Positions 8,787 to 32,443 of a DNA stretch of 32,443 nt are shown piece by piece. A model generated the notes under the pieces. The model was not told the origin of the DNA. It was given only the letters and a program-made list of their open reading frames with translations, and did no database searches. Made by a program: the position numbers and the translations under genes. This DNA is from an uncultured Oscillospiraceae bacterium (GTDB lineage Bacteria; Bacillota; Clostridia; Oscillospirales; Oscillospiraceae). The stretch lies in contig CATABD010000026.1 of assembly GCA_949494735.1 (NCBI GenBank), positions 1-32,443 of the forward strand, given 5' to 3'. Within the stretch, counting starts at the first letter, position 1, and each line of letters opens with the position of its first letter.

Positions 8787-8827
8787 TTATGGTGGAACCC
8801 CTCCACCTATCCGCCCGGGCCTGGGCA

Positions 8828-8836
8828 TGGTACAAT
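8828..8836 (+). promoter_or_regulatory. Possible extended -10 promoter for the Ubl-JAMM operon
   Basis: TGGTACAAT reads as an extended -10 element (TGn plus TACAAT). No convincing -35 box lies 17 bases upstream. It would give a leader of roughly 185 bases before the start codon at 9029. Confidence 0.35.
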
Positions 8837-8850
8837 GGGTTTGTATTTCA

Positions 8851-8880
8851 GGGCGGAGTAAGTTAGGGCGGAGTAAGCGA
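8851..8880. repeat. 15-bp direct repeats in the Ubl-JAMM leader
   Basis: GGGCGGAGTAAG occurs at 8851-8862 and 8866-8877 with a period of 15, and a degenerate third unit (GGGTGGAACGGCG) starts at 8881. The arrangement recalls short iterons or a protein-binding array upstream of the operon. Confidence 0.6.
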
Positions 8881-8960
8881 GGGTGGAACGGCGTGGAAAG
8901 GGGTGAAGTCTGCCCTCCGCCGGACCGAAACGGCCTGGAAAAACAAAAAATGGACAAGAA

Positions 8961-9000
8961 GACTGTGAGTTGCCCATGGGGCAGTTCACGGTCCTTTTTT
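8961..9000 (+). terminator. Strong intrinsic terminator in the leader of the Ubl-JAMM operon
   Basis: GACTGTGAGTTGCC pairs with GGCAGTTCACGGTC (14 pairs with G-U wobbles) around CATG and is followed by CTTTTTTG. It ends only 29 bases before the start codon at 9029, downstream of the candidate promoter, so it could attenuate the operon rather than simply end an upstream transcript. Confidence 0.75.
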
Positions 9001-9028
9001 GTCCCCAAACACGAGAGGAGAAAAGATC

Positions 9029-10459
9029 ATGAGTGAACAGAGCAGCAGCGGATTCCCCTTTACCGAGATGGCCGACGGCGCCGGCCTGGACATCGACGCC
9101 ATCTTTGGCGGCGCGTCCGGCGGCGGAACCCCCAGCGATGTGACCCCCTTCGAGGCGGCGCTGCCCCAGCAGGTCCAGCCCGCCGCACAGGCACAGCCCC
9201 AGGCGGCGCCCCAGCCCGCGCCCCAGCCCGCGCCCCAGGCGGCCCCGCAGCCCGCGGCGTCCGTGTTCCAGAGTGTCCAGCCCATACCGCCCGCCCCGGC
9301 TCCGGCGGCGCAGCCCGCCCCGGCCCCCGCGCCTGTGGCAACCCAGACACCGGCGGCACAGTCCCCGCTGGACATCGATCCCCTGGCCGCCGCCATGGCG
9401 GAGCAGGAGGCCAAGGCGGAGCAGAAAGCGGCCAAGTCCCTGTTCGAGAAATCCCCGGTGTTCTGCTACGGCAGCGCCAAAGAGGACATCGCCGACCCCG
9501 GCATGACCTTCGAGGAGCTTCGCATCGCCAAGGCGGAGGACTTCCCCGAGCTGGCCGAGGGCAAGAAGGTGTCCTGGACGGTGGAGTACGGCAAGACCGT
9601 GAAGCCCATCACTGACCCCAAGGGGACCACCATCGCCTCCGTCAAGTCGGAGATCGAAACCTCCAAGGCGTTCCTGGACAACCTCAAGAAGGCCAAGGAC
9701 AAGAACCCGGACTGCCTGGTGAAGCCCAAGGTCACCGCCCAGAGCAAGGGCATCGCCGCCTACAAGGGGGTGTTCGCCTCCCTGGAGGAGGCCCGGGCGT
9801 CGGACAAGACCATCTGCGCCATCCCCGGCGGGGACGGCAGGGTGTACGAGCTGCGGAAAAACGAGCTGGGGGAGTTCATCGCCCCCAAGGACTGCGTGAT
9901 CGACCTTCCAACGGTTGTGGCCGGGTTTACCCCGGCCCTTCCGCTGGTGCCCATGGAGCTGCTGGCCCAGATCATCTCCTTCTTCCGCTGCTGCATGAGC
10001 GGCCCAGAGGAGTTCGAGGCGCTGGCCCACATCTTCTGGGACAAGCAGGAGGAGAAATTTGTGGCGCACATCCCGAAACAGCGGGTGACCAAGGCCCACA
10101 TCGACGCCGACCTGACCCAGGAGGAGCTGCCGGAGGACCGTTACCTGCACTACATCGACATACACAGCCACAACAGCATGGAGGCCAAGTTCTCCCGTGT
10201 GGACGATGAGGATGAGCGGGCCACCCGGATCTACATCGTGGTGGGCCGGCTGGACAAGTTCTTCCCGGACGTCACGGTGCGGATGTCCTGCGGCGGCACC
10301 TACCTGACCCTGCCCCCCGGCTGCGTACTGGAGAGCTTCGGCGGGGTGTTCCCTGCTGAGTGGCGCGCCCAGGTGACGCTGCTGCGGAGGGAGGCCCTGC
10401 CGGTACTGCGTCCGATGGCGGAAGCGCCGGCGGAGAAGCCGTGGGAGGATCGCCAATGA
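9029..10459 (+). CDS. Fusion of PRTRC protein C-like ubiquitin-like domain and JAMM/JAB protease domain
   Basis: A 476-residue multidomain protein. Residues 1-40 are short and acidic; about 40-115 is an Ala/Pro/Gln-rich disordered linker with PQPAPQPAPQ repeats. Residues about 143-195 (VFCYGSAKEDIADPGMTFEE, then a FPELAEG segment) resemble the PRTRC system protein C, a prokaryotic ubiquitin-like family. The C-terminal domain (about 295-450) has a complete JAMM zinc-protease motif: H379-S-H381, seven residues, S389, two residues, D392, with E330 as candidate catalytic Glu. JAMM enzymes remove ubiquitin-like tags. GAGAGGAGAAAA precedes ATG 9029. It overlaps the E1-like gene by four bases (ATGA). 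The JAMM call is strong; the ubiquitin-like call is pattern recognition and needs a profile or structure check. Confidence 0.8.
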   Translation: MSEQSSSGFPFTEMADGAGLDIDAIFGGASGGGTPSDVTPFEAALPQQVQPAAQAQPQAAPQPAPQPAPQAAPQPAASVFQSVQPIPPAPAPAAQPAPAPAPVATQTPAAQSPLDIDPLAAAMAEQEAKAEQKAAKSLFEKSPVFCYGSAKEDIADPGMTFEELRIAKAEDFPELAEGKKVSWTVEYGKTVKPITDPKGTTIASVKSEIETSKAFLDNLKKAKDKNPDCLVKPKVTAQSKGIAAYKGVFASLEEARASDKTICAIPGGDGRVYELRKNELGEFIAPKDCVIDLPTVVAGFTPALPLVPMELLAQIISFFRCCMSGPEEFEALAHIFWDKQEEKFVAHIPKQRVTKAHIDADLTQEELPEDRYLHYIDIHSHNSMEAKFSRVDDEDERATRIYIVVGRLDKFFPDVTVRMSCGGTYLTLPPGCVLESFGGVFPAEWRAQVTLLRREALPVLRPMAEAPAEKPWEDRQ

Positions 10460-11112
10460 AGTTCTCCATGACCCGCCCGGTGAAGATCGTCATGCTGGGC
10501 GCGGGCAGCACCGGCGGCCACATCGCGCCCCACCTGTACCGCCTGCTGTACTCGCTGGACCGCCCGGTGCGGTTCATCCTCTGCGACGGTGATGTGGTGG
10601 AGGAGAAGAACCTGGTGCGGCAGAATTTCACCCCCGCCGACCTGGGAGAGAACAAGGCCAGGGTGCTGGCGGAGCGGTATTCCGCCGTATTCGGCCTGGA
10701 GACGGAATATGTGCCCTCCTTCGTGGAGGATGAGGAGCAGCTTCACGCCCTGCTGGAGCCGGAATATCTCTGGATGCGCCAGCCCGGCCATGCCTACGGC
10801 GTGCGGGAGCCGGAGCAGGTCATCCTCATCGGCGCGGTGGACAACAACAAATCCCGGCAGCTGTGCCACCGGGTATTTTACGACCGCCTTTCCCTGTCCG
10901 AGAAGATCCGGGCGGGGATGGAGGTGTCCGAGCTGATGAAGCGGCTCACCGGGCGCAATTACCCGGTGTTCGTGGACAACATGGAGTCCGTGGACGACCT
11001 CAACAACGTGCGGCCCACCGGGCAGGTCATCATGGCCAAGTGCGTCAGCGGCGCGCCCCTGGCGGTGCGGCCTGTGCGGCCTATTGACGTGGCCCAGCGG
11101 CAGGCGGCGTAG
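10456..11112 (+). CDS. E1-like ThiF family adenylyltransferase (PRTRC type)
   Basis: A 218-residue E1/ThiF/MoeB superfamily protein. The Rossmann nucleotide-binding loop G15-A-G-S-T-G20 starts the domain. D44 and D46 in CDGDVVEEKN, N52, R55-Q56 and K67 (GENKA) match the E1 pattern DxDxVexxNLxRQ and NKA; D129 in GAVDNNKSRQ matches the ATP/Mg-binding Asp. E1 enzymes adenylate the C-terminus of a ubiquitin-like or sulfur-carrier protein. Zinc-binding CxxC pairs of MoeB/ThiF are absent, and the protein is short. C137 and C196 are possible catalytic cysteines but cannot be assigned. It overlaps the JAMM gene, so the two products are probably made in step and work together. Confidence 0.88.
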   Translation: MKFSMTRPVKIVMLGAGSTGGHIAPHLYRLLYSLDRPVRFILCDGDVVEEKNLVRQNFTPADLGENKARVLAERYSAVFGLETEYVPSFVEDEEQLHALLEPEYLWMRQPGHAYGVREPEQVILIGAVDNNKSRQLCHRVFYDRLSLSEKIRAGMEVSELMKRLTGRNYPVFVDNMESVDDLNNVRPTGQVIMAKCVSGAPLAVRPVRPIDVAQRQAA

Positions 11113-11131
11113 GGGGTGAGTCCGTCTGGCC

Positions 11132-12196
11132 GTGAAGCAATACGAAAAAATCCCCATCGTGGACGCGGCCAGACGGTGCGGCATAGCCTTGGATTCCCGG
11201 ACGCTGCGGCATCGGGAGGTGGAGGCCACCTGCCCCTTCTGCCACGACCACGGGCCGGGGAAGTACCATCTCAGCCTGAACACCGCCACAGACCAGTACC
11301 GCTGCACCCTGTGCGGCGCCCACGGCAACAGCGTGACGCTGTACGCACGGCTCATGGGCGTGTCCAACCGGGAGGCGTACCACGCCCTGGCCCGGGAGGG
11401 CAAGGTCTATCCCATGCCCCGGCAGAAAGTGTCCGCGAAAGATGCGGAGCGCCAGCCCCTGCCCCTGGAGCGGCGACATGAGGCATATACCGCCATGCTG
11501 GATCACCTGACGCTGCTGGACCGGCACCGGGACAATCTGCTGGAGCGGGGGCTGTCCGGGGAGCGCATTGAGCGAAACCAGTACCGCAGTATGCCGGAGA
11601 CGGACGCGGGGCGGCGGCTGTTGGCCGCCCTGCTCCGCTCCTGCGGCCACGAGCTGCTGGGCCTGCCGGGGTTCCGCACCTACTACGGTGAGTGGGAGCT
11701 CTCCGGGCCGAAAGGGTTTCTGATCCCCGTCCGCAACAAGGACGGGCTGATCCAGGGCATGAAGATACGGCTGGACGACGCGGACAAGCCGAGCCGGAAA
11801 TACCGCTGGCTGTCCAGCAGGGATATGCCCAACGGCACCCGCAGTTATTCCTATATCCATGTCACCGGCGACACAACCCAAAAGCGGGCCTTCCTCACGG
11901 AGGGCCCGCTGAAGGGGGACGTGGCCAGCTATCTGGCCCACGACGCGCTGTTCGTGTGCGTGGGCGGGGTGAACGCCATCCGCGGGCTGAAGGACACACT
12001 GGTGGATCTGGGCGTCACCCATGCGGTGGAGGCCATGGACATGGACCAGCTGACCAACCCCAACGTCCGCAATGCCATATTGGCCATGCGGCGGGAAGTA
12101 CAGGCCATCAAGGGCCTAAAATACACGAAATACACATGGGATCCGGCGTATAAGGGGGTAGACAACTATTTCTTGAGCCGGGTGGCTGCCATGTAG
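11132..12196 (+). CDS. CHC2 zinc-finger DNA primase-like protein
   Basis: A 354-residue DnaG-like primase of the mobile-element type. An N-terminal CHC2 zinc finger is clear: C34-P-F-C37 and C58-T-L-C61, with HGNS following as in DnaG. The C-terminal half contains a Toprim-like core, with RAFLTEGPLKGDVASYLAHD (Glu) and later EAMDMDQLTN (DxD). The start is a GTG at 11132 with GGGGTGA upstream; no suitable ATG exists nearby. It would make primers for element replication, working with the SSB and DnaC-like ATPase seen at the left edge. It follows the ThiF gene by 19 bases in the same operon. Confidence 0.85.
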   Translation: MKQYEKIPIVDAARRCGIALDSRTLRHREVEATCPFCHDHGPGKYHLSLNTATDQYRCTLCGAHGNSVTLYARLMGVSNREAYHALAREGKVYPMPRQKVSAKDAERQPLPLERRHEAYTAMLDHLTLLDRHRDNLLERGLSGERIERNQYRSMPETDAGRRLLAALLRSCGHELLGLPGFRTYYGEWELSGPKGFLIPVRNKDGLIQGMKIRLDDADKPSRKYRWLSSRDMPNGTRSYSYIHVTGDTTQKRAFLTEGPLKGDVASYLAHDALFVCVGGVNAIRGLKDTLVDLGVTHAVEAMDMDQLTNPNVRNAILAMRREVQAIKGLKYTKYTWDPAYKGVDNYFLSRVAAM

Positions 12197-12828: not shown

Positions 12829-12846
12829 CAAGAAAGGGACATGAAA

Positions 12847-13824
12847 ATGGATAACGTATTTGATATGCACGATTTCATCGGCACATCCCAGGGCGACCAG
12901 GCCCATATGCTGGGCAAGTTCCTCTATTTTTCCCTGGCGAACCTGCTGGTGGACAAGGGAGAACTGTCCAAGCTGTGCGAGGACATGGGCATCCCCTATG
13001 CCGGCGGCACCCGGCTGTCCGTGGGGGACGCTTTCCGCTCCGCCACCGGCGACATCCGGGAGCGGGTTCCTGTGACCGTCATGGGGGAGACCAACATCTA
13101 TTTGGCCTACTGCCGGGACAATAAACGCACCAGCGCCGAGATTTTATCCCGGGAGCTGGTGAAGGAGACGCTGAACCAGCGTACCAACAACTACGAGAAG
13201 CTGGCCAACATCAGCTACGACAAGAGGGACGGCGTGTTCCGGGCGGAAAACCTGGTGCCGGATGACGCCATCGACGTGGCCGCCTGCTGCCGCAAGGCGG
13301 AGGAGTTGTTTGAACTCTACCAGCGGTGTGCCAACCGTAAGCAGATCGAGACTATCTGCGTCAACTACCTGCGGGGGCTGGAGGCCACCAAGCTGAGCAT
13401 CTCGGGGCATATGTACTTCGTGCCCCGCACCTACATGGACAAGGTGGATCTGTTTGAGGACTTCATCGGCCTGCTGGGCGGGCTCAACCGCAGGGAGACT
13501 CCGCTGATGGTGAACAGCTTTTTCATCATTGACGATGAAAAGCAACGGTCCAAGATGACCGAGGAGTTCTACGCAGCGGTGAAGAAGGAGATCGCTGCCT
13601 ACCAGGAGCGGGCGGACTACCTCATCAAGTCCGGCAGCCAGAGCCCGGCGGTGATGGAACGCTGGGTACTGAAGATCCAGGCGCTGGAGGAGAAAAAGAA
13701 GCACTATGAGGGTGTGCTCCGCCGGGAACTGGATGGACTGGACGATGAATTTGCCACGCTGAAGTTCCTGGGGCAGGAGCTCCAGACGCGGGCGCAGAGC
13801 ATTCGGTTTCAAAAGGCGGCGTAG
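12847..13824 (+). CDS. DUF6744-like element protein
   Basis: A 325-residue mainly helical protein. Its middle has the recognisable ATKLSISGHMYFVPRTYMDK segment (about residues 182-201), and its C-terminal third (about 235-320) is predicted coiled coil with charged repeats (EEKKKHYEGVLRRELDGLDD). It resembles DUF6744 proteins of Firmicute elements, whose function is unknown. ATG 12847 has better spacing from AAGGGAC than ATG 12841. As last gene of the operon with the Ubl-JAMM, E1 and primase genes, it might be a structural or segregation factor; this is inference. Confidence 0.7.
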   Translation: MDNVFDMHDFIGTSQGDQAHMLGKFLYFSLANLLVDKGELSKLCEDMGIPYAGGTRLSVGDAFRSATGDIRERVPVTVMGETNIYLAYCRDNKRTSAEILSRELVKETLNQRTNNYEKLANISYDKRDGVFRAENLVPDDAIDVAACCRKAEELFELYQRCANRKQIETICVNYLRGLEATKLSISGHMYFVPRTYMDKVDLFEDFIGLLGGLNRRETPLMVNSFFIIDDEKQRSKMTEEFYAAVKKEIAAYQERADYLIKSGSQSPAVMERWVLKIQALEEKKKHYEGVLRRELDGLDDEFATLKFLGQELQTRAQSIRFQKAA

Positions 13825-14598: not shown

Positions 14599-14620
14599 AA
14601 GTCGGTCGTTTGACCGACTT
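14599..14620. promoter_or_regulatory. TetR-type operator palindrome
   Basis: AAGTCGGTC, GTTT, GACCGACTT: a perfect 9-4-9 inverted repeat starting 12 bases after the -10 box, at about +5. The size and symmetry are typical for a TetR dimer, and bound repressor would block the operon promoter. Confidence 0.85.
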
Positions 14621-14648
14621 GTTGGGAATTAAAAGAGGTGCAAGATCC

Positions 14649-16355
14649 GTGGATATGGGAAAGGTAAACAAAAAGCTGTCCGCCCGTTTTGGCGGAGCGG
14701 TGCGGGCGGAGCTGCGGGATGGCAGCGTTGTGCTGTCCGGGAAGCTGGACCGCTGGGCGGATGTGGTGGAGGCCTGCCAGCTGGCGGCGGTGAAGTACAG
14801 CCGGGTTCATGTGGTCAACGACATCACATGCGCGGAGGCCAAAGCTCAGCCCATGCGCCTGCCCGACCTGCGGGACAGCGTGCTGGAGGGCGCCCGGCCG
14901 GACGCGCTCATCATCGGCGGCGGCATTTCCGGCGCGTCCATTGCCCGGGAGCTGTCCAAGTGGAAGCTGGACATTCTGCTGGTGGATAAGGAGCCGGACC
15001 TGGCCCTCCATGCCTCCGGGCGCAATGACGGCGAGGTCCACCCCGGCGTGGATCTGGGAAAGGGCTCCCTGAAGCACCGCTATATCCGCAGGGGGAACGC
15101 CATGTACGATGAGGTGTGCCGGGAGCTGGACGTACCCTTCCGCCGGGTGGGGCAGTACGTGTGCTTTGACAAGGGCTGGCTGCGACCCTTCATCGCCCTG
15201 TACTGCCTGTGGCGCAGATATCACGACGGCATCTCCGATACCCGGATCATTTCCGGTGCGGAGCTGAGACGGCGGGAGCCAGCTCTGAGCCGGGACTTCA
15301 AATTCGCGGTGTCCAACCCCTCCTCCGGCTGTGTCTGCCCCTACGGCCTGACCATCGCCTACGGGGAAAACGCGGTGCAGAACGGGGCGAAAGTGTCGCT
15401 GGACACGGCGGTTCTGTCCATGGAGGTGGAGGACGGGGAGATCAAATCCGTCGCCACCAACCGGGGCACGGTATATCCGGCCCTGGTCATCAACGCGGCA
15501 GGGGTCTTCGCTGAGGAGGTGGCCCGGATGGCGGGGGACCGTTTCTACTCCATCCACCCACGGCGGGGCACCAACTCCATTCTGGATAAGAAGGCGGGGG
15601 CCTCGTTTTCCTCCATCGCCTCCGTCATGGAGGCGGCCCGCACCCGGGGCCGTTCCAAAGGGGGAGGCATCCTGCACACTGTCCACGACAACCTGCTGGC
15701 GGGCCCGGACGCGGTGGAGACCTGGGAAAAGGAAAACACCGAGACCCACCCCGAGAGCATCACCCACGTGTTTTCCAAGCAGCAAAGGACCATGCCCGCC
15801 CTCAGCCAGGGGGACATCATCACCTACTTCACCGGGGTGCGCGCCCCCACCTTCGAGGAGGACTTTATCATCGAAAAGGGGCGTAAAATCCATAACCTCA
15901 TCCACTGCGCGGGGATACAGTCCCCCGGCCTGACCACCGCCCCCGCCGTGGCCCTGGACATTGAGAAAATGGCGGTGGAGGAGCTGCGCAAGAGGGGCAG
16001 GACTGTGGAGCGCAACGAAAGCTTCAACCCCATTCGGAAGGGCCCGCCGGTGCTGAGGGACCTGCCGGACGGGGAACGGGCCGCCCTGATCCGGGAGAAT
16101 CCGGACTACGGCGTGATCGTCTGCCGCTGCGAGGAGGTGAGCCGGGGGGAGATTCTGGACGCCCTGCGCTCCCCCATCTGCGTACCCACGGTGGACGGGG
16201 TGAAAAAGCGGGTGCGCCCCGGCATGGGCCGGTGCCAGGGAGGCTTCTGCTCCCCCCTGGTGGCCCAGATCATCGCGGAGTTTTTGGATGTGCCTCTGGA
16301 GGACGTGAAAAAGTCCTCCAGCCAGTCGGACATCACCTTCGGGCGGACGAAGTAG
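14649..16355 (+). CDS. GlpA-like FAD-dependent glycerol-3-phosphate dehydrogenase-type enzyme with BFD [2Fe-2S] domain
   Basis: A 568-residue flavoprotein resembling the anaerobic glycerol-3-phosphate dehydrogenase subunit GlpA. An N-terminal extension (1-85) has a BON-like pattern (GSVVLSGKLDRWADVVEA, then VHVVNDI). The FAD-binding Rossmann motif is ALIIGGGISGASIAREL (about 89-105), followed by a DAO-type domain to about 455. The C-terminal BFD-like domain has CRC (near 493) and GRCQGGFC (near 525-532) to bind a [2Fe-2S] cluster. The start is GTG 14649, nine bases after AGAGGTG; ATG 14655 is also possible. It is the first gene of the repressed operon. The true substrate may be glycerol-3-phosphate or an alkylated analogue. 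Confidence 0.85.
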   Translation: MDMGKVNKKLSARFGGAVRAELRDGSVVLSGKLDRWADVVEACQLAAVKYSRVHVVNDITCAEAKAQPMRLPDLRDSVLEGARPDALIIGGGISGASIARELSKWKLDILLVDKEPDLALHASGRNDGEVHPGVDLGKGSLKHRYIRRGNAMYDEVCRELDVPFRRVGQYVCFDKGWLRPFIALYCLWRRYHDGISDTRIISGAELRRREPALSRDFKFAVSNPSSGCVCPYGLTIAYGENAVQNGAKVSLDTAVLSMEVEDGEIKSVATNRGTVYPALVINAAGVFAEEVARMAGDRFYSIHPRRGTNSILDKKAGASFSSIASVMEAARTRGRSKGGGILHTVHDNLLAGPDAVETWEKENTETHPESITHVFSKQQRTMPALSQGDIITYFTGVRAPTFEEDFIIEKGRKIHNLIHCAGIQSPGLTTAPAVALDIEKMAVEELRKRGRTVERNESFNPIRKGPPVLRDLPDGERAALIRENPDYGVIVCRCEEVSRGEILDALRSPICVPTVDGVKKRVRPGMGRCQGGFCSPLVAQIIAEFLDVPLEDVKKSSSQSDITFGRTK

Positions 16356-16367
16356 GGGGGTATTGAT

Positions 16368-17627
16368 ATGCGTACCTATGATGTCACTGTCATCGGCGGC
16401 GGTCCCGCGGGACTGGCGGCGGCGCTGTCCGCCCACGGAGAGGGGGCCAAGACCCTCCTGGTGGAGCGGGAGGCCCGCTTGGGCGGCATTTTGAAGCAGT
16501 GCATCCACGACGGCTTCGGGCTGGTGCGGTTCCAGGAAAAGCTCACCGGGCCGGAATACGCCCAGCGGTTTATCCTCCGCTTTCAACAAGCTGGCATCAG
16601 CTGCGCGGTGCAGACCTTCGTCACCCGGGCGGAGCGGGCCGGGGAGGGCTTCGACGTCACCCTGGTAAACCGGGATGGGGTGGGGACCATCCGGACCAAG
16701 ACGCTGGTGCTGGCCACCGGCTGCCGGGAGCGCACCGCCAAACAGGTGTCCATCCACGGCACCCGCCCCGCCGGGGTGTTCACCGCCGGGACGGCCCAGC
16801 ATTTCACCAACCTGCTGGGCCAGCTCCCCACCAAAAAATGTGTCATCCTGGGCAGCGGGGACATCGGCCTCATCATGGCCCGGCGGCTCACCCTGGAGGG
16901 GGCCCAGGTGCTGGGGGTGTACGAGGCCAAGCCCACCCCCTCCGGCCTGACCCGGAACATCCACCAGTGCCTCCATGACTACGGCATCCCCCTGTACCTG
17001 TCCCACACGGTGACCCGGGTGTTGGGGGCGGGCCGGCTGACGGCGGTGGAGGTGGCGCAGGTGGACGGCTCCATGAGGCCCATCCCCGGCACAGAGGAGG
17101 TGGTGGAGTGCGACGGGCTGATCCTGTCGGTGGGGCTCATCCCGGAAAACGAGCTGGCCCAGTCCCTGGGAGTGGAATTAGATCCCAAGACAAAGGGGCC
17201 GGTGTGCGACGGCCAGCTCATGACCAGCGTGGACGGGGTGTTTTCCTGCGGCAACGCCCTCCACGTCAACGATCTGGTGGACTACGTGTCCGAGAGCGGG
17301 GAGCTGGCGGGGCGGAACGCCGCCCGGTATGCCGCCGCCCCCCGGCGGACGGTGCCCATACGCCCCTCCCCGGCCCTGCTCTACGCCGTCCCCCAGCGGC
17401 TGGACCTGGACCGGGACAACAGCGAGACCGCCCTCTACTTCCGCAGCCGGGAGGTGCTGGACGGCTGCGTACTCCGCGTCCGGGCAGACGGGCGGGAGGT
17501 GTTCTCCAAGCGCTACCCCTTCCTGCGCCCGCCGGAGATAGAACGGCTGAACGTGGATTTCTCCCGGTTCGGCCTGCACGAGGGCTCCGAAATCGAATTG
17601 GATATCGAGGTGACGGAACATGGATGA
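16368..17627 (+). CDS. GlpB-like FAD/NAD(P)-dependent oxidoreductase
   Basis: A 419-residue pyridine nucleotide-disulfide-type oxidoreductase. The first dinucleotide fold is VTVIGGGPAGLAAALSAHGE (about residues 4-23), and the second is CVILGSGDIGLIMARRLTLE (about 157-176). The stretches GCRERTAKQVSIHGTRPAGV and FTAGTAQHF are typical of the enzymes paired with GlpA-like dehydrogenases and a DUF1667 protein in Firmicutes and Thermotogae, and of sarcosine or opine oxidase subunits. It probably passes electrons from the GlpA-like subunit to an acceptor. AGGGGGGTATTGAT precedes ATG 16368. It overlaps the DUF1667 gene by eight bases. Confidence 0.85.
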   Translation: MRTYDVTVIGGGPAGLAAALSAHGEGAKTLLVEREARLGGILKQCIHDGFGLVRFQEKLTGPEYAQRFILRFQQAGISCAVQTFVTRAERAGEGFDVTLVNRDGVGTIRTKTLVLATGCRERTAKQVSIHGTRPAGVFTAGTAQHFTNLLGQLPTKKCVILGSGDIGLIMARRLTLEGAQVLGVYEAKPTPSGLTRNIHQCLHDYGIPLYLSHTVTRVLGAGRLTAVEVAQVDGSMRPIPGTEEVVECDGLILSVGLIPENELAQSLGVELDPKTKGPVCDGQLMTSVDGVFSCGNALHVNDLVDYVSESGELAGRNAARYAAAPRRTVPIRPSPALLYAVPQRLDLDRDNSETALYFRSREVLDGCVLRVRADGREVFSKRYPFLRPPEIERLNVDFSRFGLHEGSEIELDIEVTEHG

Positions 17628-17976
17628 GCTGGTCTGTATCGTATGCCCCCGGGGCTGTACCCTGTCGGCGGAGCGGGAGGGGGATACCATCCGGGTGACG
17701 GGAAACGGCTGCAAGCGGGGGGCGGAGTTCGCCCGCATGGAGCTCACCGCCCCCAAACGAACCCTGTGCACCACGGTGCGCACCACCATCCCCGGCGTCC
17801 CGGTGCTGCCGGTGAAGGTGTCCGCCGAGATCCCCAAGGAGAAGATATTCCCCGTGATGGCCGCCATCAACGCCGCCACGGTGGACCGTCCGGTGGCCAT
17901 GGGCGGCGTGGTGCTGGAAAACGTGCTGGGGCTGGGGGTGGACGTGGTGGCCGCCAGCGCCCTGCTCGATGGATAG
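17620..17976 (+). CDS. DUF1667 cysteine-motif protein (Glp complex partner)
   Basis: A 118-residue DUF1667 protein. Four cysteines near the N-terminus, in VCIVCPRGC and GNGCKRG (C6, C9, C13, C31), could hold an iron-sulfur cluster or zinc. The rest includes PVLPVKVSAEIPKEKIFPVM, characteristic of the family. DUF1667 genes regularly follow GlpA/GlpB-like pairs in anaerobes, so it is probably a third, electron-transferring or assembly subunit of the same enzyme. That function is inference from gene neighbourhood. It overlaps the upstream gene and lies 14 bases before the kinase. Confidence 0.88.
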   Translation: MDELVCIVCPRGCTLSAEREGDTIRVTGNGCKRGAEFARMELTAPKRTLCTTVRTTIPGVPVLPVKVSAEIPKEKIFPVMAAINAATVDRPVAMGGVVLENVLGLGVDVVAASALLDG

Positions 17977-17990
17977 GGGGGTGGGCGGCG

Positions 17991-19550
17991 ATGGATACCC
18001 CGCTGATCCTTACCTTCGACGTGGGCACCCAGAGCACCCGCTGCCTGCTGGTCCGGCCGGACGGCGGTTTTGAGGACCTGTGCCAGGTGAAACACCAGCA
18101 GCCCTACTTCTCCCGCAACCCCGGCTGGGCGGAGCAGAGCCCGGACTTTTACTATGAGCGGCTCTGCGAGGCCGGGCGGGCCGTCTGCGGCCGGAACAAG
18201 GGGGCCTTAAGCCGGGTGTCCGCCGTGGCCCTCACCACCATCCGGGACACGGTGGTGTGCCTGGACCGGGACAACAAGCCCCTGCGGGACATCATCCTCT
18301 GGCTGGACAAGCGCAAGGCGGAGTTCGGCGACCCCTTTCCCTTTCATCGGAAGCTGATGTTCCGGGTGGCGGGGATGGCGCCGGCCACGGAAAACATCTA
18401 CCGCGCCTCCCCCTGCAACTGGATCGCCCAGCGCCAGCCGGACATTTGGGATAAAACGGCCCAGTATGTCATGCTCCCTACCTATTTGAATTACAAAATG
18501 ACCGGGGTGCTGGCCGACTCGGCGGCCAATATGATCGGCCATATGCCCTTTGACTACAAAAACCGGCGCTGGCAGGGCCGTTCCGCCCTCACCCGGTGCA
18601 TCTACAACATCCCCCAGGAAAAGCTGTGCCGGCTGGTGCCCTCCGGCCACACCATTGGCCATACCACCGCCGCCTTTGCCGCGGATTCCGGCGTGCCCGG
18701 GGGTCTGCCCCTCATCGCCACCGGGTCGGACAAGGGCTGCGAGACTCTGGGCCTGTCCGTGACCCAGCCCGCCAAGGCGGCCATCTCCCTGGGCACCACC
18801 GCCACCGTCCAGCTGGCCCTGGACCGCTATGTGGAGCCCCAGCCCTTCATGCCCGCCTACCCGGCGGTTCCCAACCACCTCTACAACCCGGAGATCGAGC
18901 TGTACCGGGGCTTCTGGCTTGTGTCCTGGTTCCTGCGGGAGTTCTGCGCCAAGGACCTGGCCCGGGCCAAGGAGCTGGGCTGTCCCCCGGAGCAGCTTTT
19001 GGACGAGTACATCGCGGATATCCCGCCGGGGTGCGGCGGACTGCTCCTCCAGCCCTATTGGACGCCGGGGATCACCACCCCCACCGCCCGGGGGGCCGTG
19101 GTGGGCTTTTCTGACCACCACACCCGCTACCACCTGTACCGGGCCATCCTGGAGGGCATCGGCTTCGAGCTGTACTACTCCTTGAAAGCCATGGAGCGGC
19201 GGGCCAGAATCACGGTGGAGGAGCTGTACGTGGGGGGCGGCGGGGCGAAAAGCAATGTGGCCTGCCAGATTCTGGCGGACATGTTCGGCCTGCCTGTCAA
19301 GCGCACCCAGACCCACGAGGTGAGCGCCGTGGGGGCGGCCATGGCGGCCTTCCTGGCCCTGGGAACATTCCGGGATTATGAGCAGGCCATTGCCGCCATG
19401 GTCCATGAGGGGGACGTGTTCCGCCCCGACCCCCAGCGCCATAAGACCTACGCCCGGCTGTACGCGGATGCCTACGCCAGGCTGTTCCCCCGGCTGGAAC
19501 CCCTGTACCGCCGGATCAACCATATCACGAAAAGGAGCGATACGCTGTGA
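17991..19550 (+). CDS. FGGY family carbohydrate kinase (glycerol kinase-like)
   Basis: A complete 519-residue FGGY kinase. It phosphorylates a polyol or sugar with ATP. The phosphate-binding N-terminus is LILTFDVGTQSTRCLL (about residues 4-19), the substrate-side region contains ILWLDKRKAEFGD, the adenosine-side loops are SLGTTATVQLAL and the C-terminal signature region is GGGGAKSNVACQILADMFGL. Next to GlpA/GlpB-like enzymes it could be a glycerol kinase, but the substrate pocket sequence deviates from canonical GlpK as far as I can judge, and an AGPS-like gene follows. A related substrate such as a 1-O-alkylglycerol is therefore conceivable. ATG 17991 is the first codon giving the normal N-terminus. 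Confidence 0.85.
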   Translation: MDTPLILTFDVGTQSTRCLLVRPDGGFEDLCQVKHQQPYFSRNPGWAEQSPDFYYERLCEAGRAVCGRNKGALSRVSAVALTTIRDTVVCLDRDNKPLRDIILWLDKRKAEFGDPFPFHRKLMFRVAGMAPATENIYRASPCNWIAQRQPDIWDKTAQYVMLPTYLNYKMTGVLADSAANMIGHMPFDYKNRRWQGRSALTRCIYNIPQEKLCRLVPSGHTIGHTTAAFAADSGVPGGLPLIATGSDKGCETLGLSVTQPAKAAISLGTTATVQLALDRYVEPQPFMPAYPAVPNHLYNPEIELYRGFWLVSWFLREFCAKDLARAKELGCPPEQLLDEYIADIPPGCGGLLLQPYWTPGITTPTARGAVVGFSDHHTRYHLYRAILEGIGFELYYSLKAMERRARITVEELYVGGGGAKSNVACQILADMFGLPVKRTQTHEVSAVGAAMAAFLALGTFRDYEQAIAAMVHEGDVFRPDPQRHKTYARLYADAYARLFPRLEPLYRRINHITKRSDTL

Positions 19551-21298
19551 GCAATAAGCCGTACAAGGGCTTCCGGCCCAACTGGCTGGAGGCCCCGGCC
19601 CCGGAGGGGAGCTACCGTTCCATCTTCCGCTGGGGCGACCCCAATTTCTTCAAATATCCCAAGGAATCCCTCTACAAGCTGATGAAGGAATCCTTCCAGA
19701 TGACGGATGACGACTTCCGGGACTACACCGACGATATCGGCTTCGACCGGGTGGACTTGTCCGATCACCCCTCCCAAATCGCCCCGGAGCACGTGGCGGC
19801 GCTGAAACAGATCGTGGGGGAGGACTTCGTCACCACCGGGGATTACCCCCGGCTGGCGGTGGCCTACGGCTGCACGGGGTACGATCTGCTGCGCCTGCGC
19901 CATAAACAGATCGAGAACCTTCCCGACGTGGTGGTCTACCCCGACACCGCGGAACAGGTGGAGGACATCGTGGCCTATGCCGTCCAGCACAAGATCCCCC
20001 TGTACGTCTACGGCGGCGGCAGCAGCGTCACCCGGGGCATGGAGTGCATGAAGGGCGGCATCAGCCTGGATATGCGCAAACGGTTCAACAAGATCCTCAG
20101 CTTCAACGAGGTGGACCAGACCATCACCGTCCAGGCGGGGCTGTCCGGGCCGGACCTGGAGGCCGCCCTCCAGGACGCGCCCCGGCGCTTCGGGGCCAAG
20201 CGGGCCTACACCTGCGGCCACTTTCCCCAGTCCTTTGAGTACAGCAGCGTGGGCGGCTGGGTGGTCACCCGTGGCGCGGGGCAGAACAGCACCTACTACG
20301 GCACCATTGAGGACATTGTGCTGGCCCAGAAATACGCCACCCCCATTGGCCGGATCACCACCAGCCCCTATCCCAGGGAGGCCACCGGCCCCAGCATGAA
20401 GCAGATCATGCTGGGCTCCGAGGGGGCGTTCGGCGTGCTCACCGAGGTAACGCTGCGGGTGTTCCGCTGGATGCCGGAAAACCGCAAACGCTTCTCCTAT
20501 ATGTTCCGGGACTGGCCCACCGCCATGGCCGCCGCCCGGGAGATGATGCAGCGGGAGTGCGGCTATTCCTCGGTGTTCCGCCTGTCCGACCCGGAGGAGA
20601 CCCACCTGATGCTCCGGCTGTACAATGTGGACGACACGCTGCTGGCCCCCATCATGGACAAACTGGGCTACAAGGACATGGAGCGGTGCATGTTCCTGGG
20701 CTTTACCGACGGGGAGAAGGGCTTCTCCAAAAACGTGGCCAAGAACATCGGCCGCATCGCCCGGAAATTCGGGGCCATGCCCATGACGGGCTATGTCACC
20801 CGCAGCTGGGAGAAGGGCCGCTTCAACGACCCCTACCTCCGGGACACCCTGATGGACTTCAGCGTCATCACCGACACCCTGGAGTGCACCGTCAACTGGT
20901 CCAACATGGCCCAGGTTCACCGGGATGTGCGGGCGGTGTGCCATGCCCTGCCCAACACCGTGGTTACCACCCATATGTCCCACTGCTACCCCCAGGGGGC
21001 CAATCTTTACTTCATCTTCATCACCAAAATGAACGACGCGGCGGAGTTCAAGCGCTACCACACCACCATCCTGGACGCCATCCAGCGCTCCGGGGCGGCG
21101 GTGAGCCACCACCACGGCATCGGCAAGATGTTCGCCCCCTGGATCGAGGGCTACATCGGAGAGCGGGAGTACGGTGCCATCCAAGCCCTGAAAAACTACT
21201 TTGACCCCGATTTTGTCATGAATCCCGGCGGCACCATTGGACTTGACCTGCCTCAGGAGGAAAAGAAGTTCCTCAACACCCGCAAAGACTACCGATAA
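19547..21298 (+). CDS. Alkyldihydroxyacetonephosphate synthase-like FAD-binding oxidase
   Basis: A 583-residue flavoprotein of the FAD_binding_4/VAO superfamily, most like AGPS. The FAD-binding segment includes PLYVYGGGSSVTRGMEC (about residues 150-168), CGHFPQSFEYSSVGGWVV, RGAGQNSTYYG, and MLGSEGAFGVLTEVTLR. The AGPS-type catalytic loop SHHHGIGK (S520, H521-H523) and a DPDFVMNPGG C-terminus are present. AGPS exchanges the acyl group of acyl-DHAP for an alkyl group in ether lipid synthesis; related bacterial proteins could act in the reverse, catabolic direction. GTG 19547 overlaps the kinase stop, with AAAAGGAG well spaced upstream. It is last in the operon, before a strong terminator. No FAR1-like gene is nearby. 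Confidence 0.85.
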   Translation: MSNKPYKGFRPNWLEAPAPEGSYRSIFRWGDPNFFKYPKESLYKLMKESFQMTDDDFRDYTDDIGFDRVDLSDHPSQIAPEHVAALKQIVGEDFVTTGDYPRLAVAYGCTGYDLLRLRHKQIENLPDVVVYPDTAEQVEDIVAYAVQHKIPLYVYGGGSSVTRGMECMKGGISLDMRKRFNKILSFNEVDQTITVQAGLSGPDLEAALQDAPRRFGAKRAYTCGHFPQSFEYSSVGGWVVTRGAGQNSTYYGTIEDIVLAQKYATPIGRITTSPYPREATGPSMKQIMLGSEGAFGVLTEVTLRVFRWMPENRKRFSYMFRDWPTAMAAAREMMQRECGYSSVFRLSDPEETHLMLRLYNVDDTLLAPIMDKLGYKDMERCMFLGFTDGEKGFSKNVAKNIGRIARKFGAMPMTGYVTRSWEKGRFNDPYLRDTLMDFSVITDTLECTVNWSNMAQVHRDVRAVCHALPNTVVTTHMSHCYPQGANLYFIFITKMNDAAEFKRYHTTILDAIQRSGAAVSHHHGIGKMFAPWIEGYIGEREYGAIQALKNYFDPDFVMNPGGTIGLDLPQEEKKFLNTRKDYR

Positions 21299-32380: not shown

Positions 32381-32443
32381 CGTCAAAACTCCTCGTATAA
32401 TAAGTTTCAGGTTAATAAATTCAGTATCAGCAGGTTTAGAGAT

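Follow-up and report, generated by a model that had tools for sequence, protein, structure and literature searches.

Bacterial operons of the kind studied here were predicted by Iyer, Burroughs and Aravind in 2006 as ubiquitin-like operon type 6d. The available part of that paper (PMC1779556) describes features that recur in the present system: a JAB protease with an N-terminal extension, an adjacent E1 without a rhodanese domain, an E2-like protein with a conserved Cys and a ubiquitin-like (Ubl) protein ending in a conserved Gly. The Ubl-JAB fusions mentioned there are the TAPI proteins of phage tails, a different family. The PRTRC cassette (TIGR03734-03738) is likewise related, as counterparts of its proteins A (JAMM), B (E2), C (Ubl, with GTKG) and ThiF were found and relatives of the present system are plasmid-borne; the plasmid name pRtrCIAT899, in the accessible text of PMC6436695, merely coincides with the string 'PRTRC'. 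BilABCD also unites Ubl, E1, E2 and JAMM in one operon, and its JAMM is reported in the available part of a review to expose the C-terminal Gly of the tag (PMC11354881). Here, a gene in which a Ubl is fused to a JAMM protease is described from contig C26 (CATABD010000026.1) of an uncultured Oscillospiraceae bacterium, a 214-contig genome, 84.9% complete and 2.7% contaminated. The whole analysed stretch of 32,443 nucleotides is referred to as the window. The fusion protein is probably the pro-tag of a plasmid-type bacterial ubiquitin system, in which the JAMM domain would cut after G241 for use of the tag by E1 and an E2 of family D (E2_D). The window locus appears, by sequence comparison, to be a deletion derivative of such a PRTRC-like (Iyer type 6d) system. 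Among the titles and abstract openings listed from open-licence papers, none reported a biochemical test of PRTRC or 6d systems or the fusion of a Ubl with this family of JAMM proteins.

The Ubl-JAMM fusion gene

The fusion protein was encoded by a single open reading frame (ORF) and comprised a Pro/Ala/Gln-rich N-terminus, a PRTRC-C-like Ubl and a JAMM domain with S389 and D392, as stated in a preliminary description of this DNA. That description had set the start of the feature at 8828, which includes ~200 bases before the gene; the gene begins at the ATG at 9029. The features of the gene were:

9029..10459, + strand: entire Ubl-JAMM fusion gene, 476 amino acids (aa), from ORF translation
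9015..9020, + strand: Shine-Dalgarno-like AGGAGA, 5' of the ATG at 9029, read in the sequence
9029..9418, + strand: Pro/Ala/Gln-rich N-terminal region, residues 1-130, presumably disordered, from translation composition
9449..9751, + strand: ubiquitin-like beta-grasp domain, residues 141-241, b-b-a-b-b-a-a-b, from the structure model
9746..9751, + strand: Lys240-Gly241, putative cleavage site, within a linker modelled at low confidence, from conservation and the model
9752..9910, + strand: segment linking the Ubl to the JAMM core, ~residues 242-294, probably JAB-N, from alignments A1 and A3 and the model
9911..10342, + strand: JAMM/JAB catalytic core, residues 295-438, with E330, H379, H381, S389 and D392

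The JAMM signature HSH-x7-S-x2-D was complete with E330, H379, H381, S389 and D392, and the protein showed the E, HxH, S-x2-D and fold of JAMM/MPN+ metalloproteases. The Glu, HxH, Ser and Asp were invariant across the 60 rows of alignment A3, which held the window and 59 fused loci; 20 of 79 loci were left out as split, short, broken or containing undetermined letters. Lack of conservation of these zinc residues had been named beforehand as evidence against the assignment, and this objection fails. Matches to family models fell under the curated cut-offs, with E 9e-12 and 44.9 bits for PRTRC_A (cut-off 101.8) and E 8e-4 and 19.7 bits for Prok-JAB (cut-off 25). R276 and W337, each conserved in at least 90% of A3, are candidates for the JAB-N Arg and Trp of PMC1779556. 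Among the sequence profiles of the PDB, the JAMM part matched AMSH-type entries at E 0.15 or more only. PHROGs gave no match for the JAMM protein, and a scan of viral contigs with the window protein found no relative.

Residues 141-241 were modelled as a beta-grasp domain that superposed on ubiquitin, with the C-terminal residues of ubiquitin falling on K240-G241. The modelled Ubl had the b-b-a-b-b-b topology of ubiquitin-like beta-grasp folds, with two helices at 202-221 and a final strand at 229-236 ahead of K-G. The beta-grasp fold foreseen for residues 143-195 was thus recovered in the model, in a domain longer than proposed. A shorter Ubl of residues 183-241 only, taken from A1, was rejected on account of a DFPEL motif in common with Paenibacillus, the profile match and the model. 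The model of residues 130-476 reached a predicted local distance difference test (pLDDT) score of 86.5 and a predicted template modelling score (pTM) of 0.56, and its sole internal segment with pLDDT below 50 was the interdomain linker at 238-243. For the Ubl, no sequence profile of the PDB was a convincing match (the best, a collagen adhesin, had E 0.011). The hidden Markov model of PRTRC_C matched 0/5 records at E 1 and profile comparison gave weak similarity only; the probability in a comparison of the Ubl of Bacilli with PRTRC_C was 3%.

Fused and split relatives

K240 and G241 were invariant in 54/54 rows of alignment A2 and 60/60 rows of A3, the rows of both having been picked as fused and long enough. 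The K-G was kept in 62/62 fused proteins with more than 60 residues before the site, including those of the window and of a second copy that the same genome has on contig C4. Locus counts refer to 80 of the 134 relatives from a scan of genome contigs. A JAMM ORF was present in 79/80 loci. It was fused with Lys-Gly in 60/79 and in two more at a contig end (L074, L087), and a separate Ubl ORF was found in 8/79. Two loci (L071, L106) had the Ubl followed by a disrupted JAB part, the JAMM ORF was cut by the contig end in two others (L103, L105), and five (L104, L109, L120, L121, L123) had no upstream Ubl ORF ending near KG. Separate Ubl genes terminated in GGAKG, GAAKG, GTSKG or similar, some with two to five additional residues, and the JAMM ORF of split loci started at most 10 bases from the Ubl ORF. 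Such split pairs include those of Robertmurraya and Anaerobacillus (L112, L115). Split relatives divide tag and protease at the same Lys-Gly that forms the boundary in the fused proteins. The survey of fused and split homologues suggested in the preliminary description supports its proposal that a cut must expose the C-terminus of the Ubl. In PRTRC_C proteins, GTKG was the C-terminus in 4/6. PRTRC_C of Azonexus and Hydrogenophaga (L133:1001-1375, L134:1001-1417) had 57 and 71 residues beyond GTKG/GAKG and therefore might need trimming too.

The Ubl might instead never be freed; the JAMM would then be a deconjugase for another tag, with the Ubl as its lasting docking or regulatory domain, comparable to the UBL domains of eukaryotic USPs. 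The best structural matches of the Ubl included UBL domains located inside USP15, USP4 and USP11, and the uncut fusion was the only form in the sampled order of the window. There, the Ubl profile matched 9/394 genomes, its own included, at 10 places, all in ORFs of at least 350 aa. This reading is nevertheless rather unlikely, given that Lys-Gly was kept in all 62 proteins despite the floppy linker, that the Ubl of split relatives ends at this very site and that, as far as tags of this profile are concerned, only the two fused copies were found in the own genome. The distribution in the order was patchy. In a genome of two contigs, one of the 10 places was located 1.5 Mb inside a contig, and the gene is therefore apparently chromosomal at least once. 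A search of 60 genomes gave eight with a match, two of them (G006, G024) through the low-complexity part alone.

A plasmid search returned 66 records, or 74 with a shorter query and a looser limit. Relatives were from Paenibacillus (8), Sphingobium (7), Cytobacillus (6), Lysinibacillus (5), Sphingomonas (5), Nostoc (4) and others, and the sphingomonad plasmid records listed were mostly annotated PRTRC. Occurrence on plasmids agrees with the element context proposed earlier, and the window stretch is probably mobile DNA. In a JAMM tree of 85 rows, the fused/split label changed four times, with at least two changes forced and one of the four due to added PRTRC_A rows; branches were long and the exact events are unsure. 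L109, L120 and L121 were labelled as split, as were the two PRTRC_A rows added. The tree omits L074, L087, L103-L105 and L123, and the sequences of L071 and L106 did not have the length for it.

Several variants of the arrangement were observed. A single ORF of 714 aa (L061:9635-11779) comprised Ubl, JAMM and E1, with its kin L059 and L060 holding two overlapping ORFs for JAMM and E1. Group II intron genes lay between or near Ubl/JAMM and ThiF in several plasmids of Bacilli (annotated in L006, L043 and L004), and a large intron-type ORF was located just before the JAMM gene in L120 and L121. The JAMM family was also encoded by large phages (L030:2261-4539, L037 and the Vibrio phages D69, D148 and D181, H3-H5). 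In phage Arash, a ThiF-like ORF adjoined the JAMM gene, whose protein had no Ubl in front, and in phage ME3 a ThiF gene was located a few genes past the JAMM gene.

The chimeric E1 frame and the second copy

The stop codon of the fusion gene (10457-10459) overlapped the ATG of the next ORF (from 10456) by four bases, ATGA. This ORF had been described as an E1-like ThiF gene; the overlap was found as described, but the E1 N-terminus was joined in frame to the C-terminus of an unrelated ATPase. The features of this region were:

10456..10872, + strand: E1-like (ThiF) N-terminal part of the chimeric ORF (PRTRC_ThiF E 1.2e-17, below cut-off)
10873..10878, + strand: deletion junction between two blastn blocks of window against C4
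10879..11112, + strand: last part of the chimeric ORF, 77 C-terminal residues of an AAA (SbcC-like) ATPase, from the match to the C4 ATPase
11132..12196, + strand: DnaG-like primase protein, the next gene in intact copies too
12841..13824, + strand: DUF6744 protein (Pfam E 2.5e-107), which follows in intact copies too

The second copy on C4 encoded a JAMM protein 84% identical to that of the window. The ThiF part of the window matched residues 1-142 of the C4 ThiF at 91%, and the tail of the ORF matched residues 526-602 of the C4 ATPase at 100%; the intact C4 protein has AAA_23. The blastn alignment broke at window 10872/C4 8527 and resumed at window 10879/C4 17347, the window lacking C4:8528-17346 (~8.8 kb). 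On this comparison, the window 'E1' reads as an in-frame chimera of ~140 ThiF residues and the AAA ATPase C-terminus, which resulted from the ~8.8 kb deletion. The adenylation columns examined (G, D, N, R, F, D, K and D129) were kept in the window. The column of Cys196, the putative catalytic E1 cysteine, held Cys in 71/71 ThiFs with at least 85% coverage (70 loci and C4, five shorter ThiF hits being left out) and Met in the window, where the C-terminal half of the E1 is missing as well.

The junction could be an artefact of the assembly into 214 contigs, with a true locus resembling C4. The chimera was unique to its own genome among 60 searched (0/59 others), the two copies are 84-91% alike, and ~240 bases at window 10999-11238, identical to C4 between stretches ~90-95% alike, could permit an assembler switch. 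This block may reflect either recent conversion or an assembly switch. An artefact is unlikely, as the two sides have only a few bases in common at the joint, which is little for a k-mer join, and the adjoining 120 bases on the right are 95% alike to C4 and not identical. At the window end, 54 bases (32389-32442) were identical to the reversed start of C4, resembling an assembler contig overlap. Window 8791-9028, 5' of the fusion gene and with no gene assigned to it, is a candidate element end or control region, and the blastn block holding it showed 87% identity between the window and C4 copies.

The C4 copy looked intact, its E1 being full-length and accompanied by an E2_D gene. The 8.8 kb that the window lacks held, on C4, the remainder of ThiF, a protein resembling a clamp (match to the dnaN model at E 3e-12, under the cut-off), small genes, a methylase with DUF6094, E2_D, a member of the Rad52 family and the greater part of the AAA ATPase. 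The same gene order was found in G033, G007, G036, G016, a Subdoligranulum plasmid and a faecal 'phage' contig, several of these being partial and the Subdoligranulum plasmid lacking the clamp. Prok-E2_D was above cut-off in 5/5 records versus 0/14 control genomes, and a ThiF hit was present in 75/80 loci (70/80 at a coverage of at least 85%). The E2 is thus missing from the window because of the ~8.8 kb deletion rather than by design, and the compact E2-less variant suggested in the preliminary description was rejected in view of C4 and of E2_D in relatives. At E 0.01, PADLOC gave no match for JAMM or E2, and a known defence system was discarded on this basis; other proteins matched E1-E2, BilD, ATPase, DRT-primase and methylase types.

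ThiF-family enzymes also act in sulfur transfer. Sulfur carriage with ThiS/MoaD-like chemistry in place of protein tagging was considered for this reason, together with the processing of MoaD fusions by JAMMs and a phosphoadenosine-phosphosulfate-reductase-like gene nearby in three plasmids (L025, L038, L041). It is very improbable in view of the E2_D Cys, present in 55/56 rows, the replication/repair genes of the operon and the absence of a rhodanese domain from the two ThiFs scanned. Type 6d E2 proteins have a conserved His downstream; in the E2_D alignment, no His was among the columns kept at 80% or more.

For the window copy itself, the chances are about even that it is a decayed remnant whose fusion gene is being lost; this concerns the copy and not the family, and is compatible with the pro-tag reading. 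The chimeric E1 without its Cys and the missing E2 point in this direction, as does decay elsewhere: the nearest relative of the window had a ThiF cut at 76 aa (L045:1232-1462), and L050 (L050:4688-7059) had no ThiF hit, its JAMM ORF overlapping a clamp-like ORF. E1 may therefore have been lost on more than one occasion. Against decay, the fusion ORF was intact, with a ratio of nonsynonymous to synonymous substitution rates (dN/dS) of 0.23 versus C4 and 0.29 versus L045, which may reflect the time before the deletion only, and the intact-looking C4 copy could serve in trans. As its E1 is broken and its E2 absent, the window copy could by itself do no more than free the tag or take it off.

Immediately behind the genes of the element, window 14610-21298 contained a glycerol-3-phosphate oxidase-like gene, a pyridine nucleotide oxidoreductase, an FGGY kinase and a GlcD-like gene, which may be cargo or chromosome.

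Proposed tag maturation and comparison with known systems

In the pro-tag reading, tag and JAMM metalloprotease would be translated as one chain, and a JAMM of the same or a neighbouring molecule would most likely cut after Lys240-Gly241 in the flexible linker. The freed tag with its C-terminal Gly would be adenylated by E1 and transferred via E2_D, and the released JAMM would later strip it from targets. For the window copy, E1 and E2 would need to come from C4. The system shares its operon with replication/repair genes (clamp-like, Rad52, AAA ATPase, primase). A clamp-like gene overlapped or directly followed ThiF in 19/80 loci and occurred anywhere in the fetched flanks in 29/80; for a dnaX-like gene, these numbers were 5/80 and 6/80. 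Flanks were of unequal length and counted without an expected-rate control, and there are loci that have neither gene. That a self-maturing tag is conjugated by E1/E2_D to the replisome of the element, perhaps to the clamp or the clamp loader that the element encodes, in a bacterial parallel to PCNA ubiquitylation, is a long shot.

Precedents for the first steps, by analogy, exist in Caldiarchaeum, Deinococcus and, according to the review, Bil. In Caldiarchaeum subterraneum, the Rpn11 JAMM frees the C-terminus of pro-ubiquitin, which E1 then activates, but protease and pro-tag are on separate genes in the available part of PMC5654768. A Ubl is cut from a linear MoaD-MoaE fusion by a JAMM in Deinococcus, the protease lying outside the fusion as far as the accessible text of PMC8832034 describes. 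In BilABCD, tag and JAMM are separate proteins according to the available part of PMC11354881; the only Bil match in PADLOC was a weak BilD match of the C4 E1 (E 0.006). A bacterial Ubl-deubiquitinase structure, 8tyx, is listed beside BilABCD.

The PRTRC cassette differs from the present system in the separate Ubl, which is fused to A here, and the counterparts either stayed under the curated cut-offs or gave no match: PRTRC_ThiF reached 64.0 bits in the window and 99.5 bits on C4 (cut-off 144.75) and PRTRC_B 33.6 bits (cut-off 131.45). The PRTRC ParB model was above cut-off in 2/14 records, both Sphingomonas controls, and in 0/12 non-control records; neither C26 nor C4 had a match, in line with the lack of ParB described earlier. 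Weaker, generic-looking ParB matches occurred in the own genome outside C26 and C4 and in Rubrobacter and Subdoligranulum records. Compared with type 6d, a JAB beside an E1 without rhodanese was found in the family, the E1 of the window being truncated, and an E2 of family D with a conserved Cys was found in relatives and is absent from the window. The Ubl with C-terminal Gly is a small standalone gene in the available part of PMC1779556 but is fused before the JAB in the window.

The system exists in nature in a fused and in a split version with one and the same dividing point, where Lys-Gly is kept, and such a pair allows a precise and cheap test of tag maturation by its own JAMM and of conjugation. 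A single chain with both parts would yield tag and remover in a 1:1 ratio, paralleling eukaryotic ubiquitin fusion precursors. Relative to PRTRC-like and type 6d systems, the fused Ubl-JAMM is the new feature.
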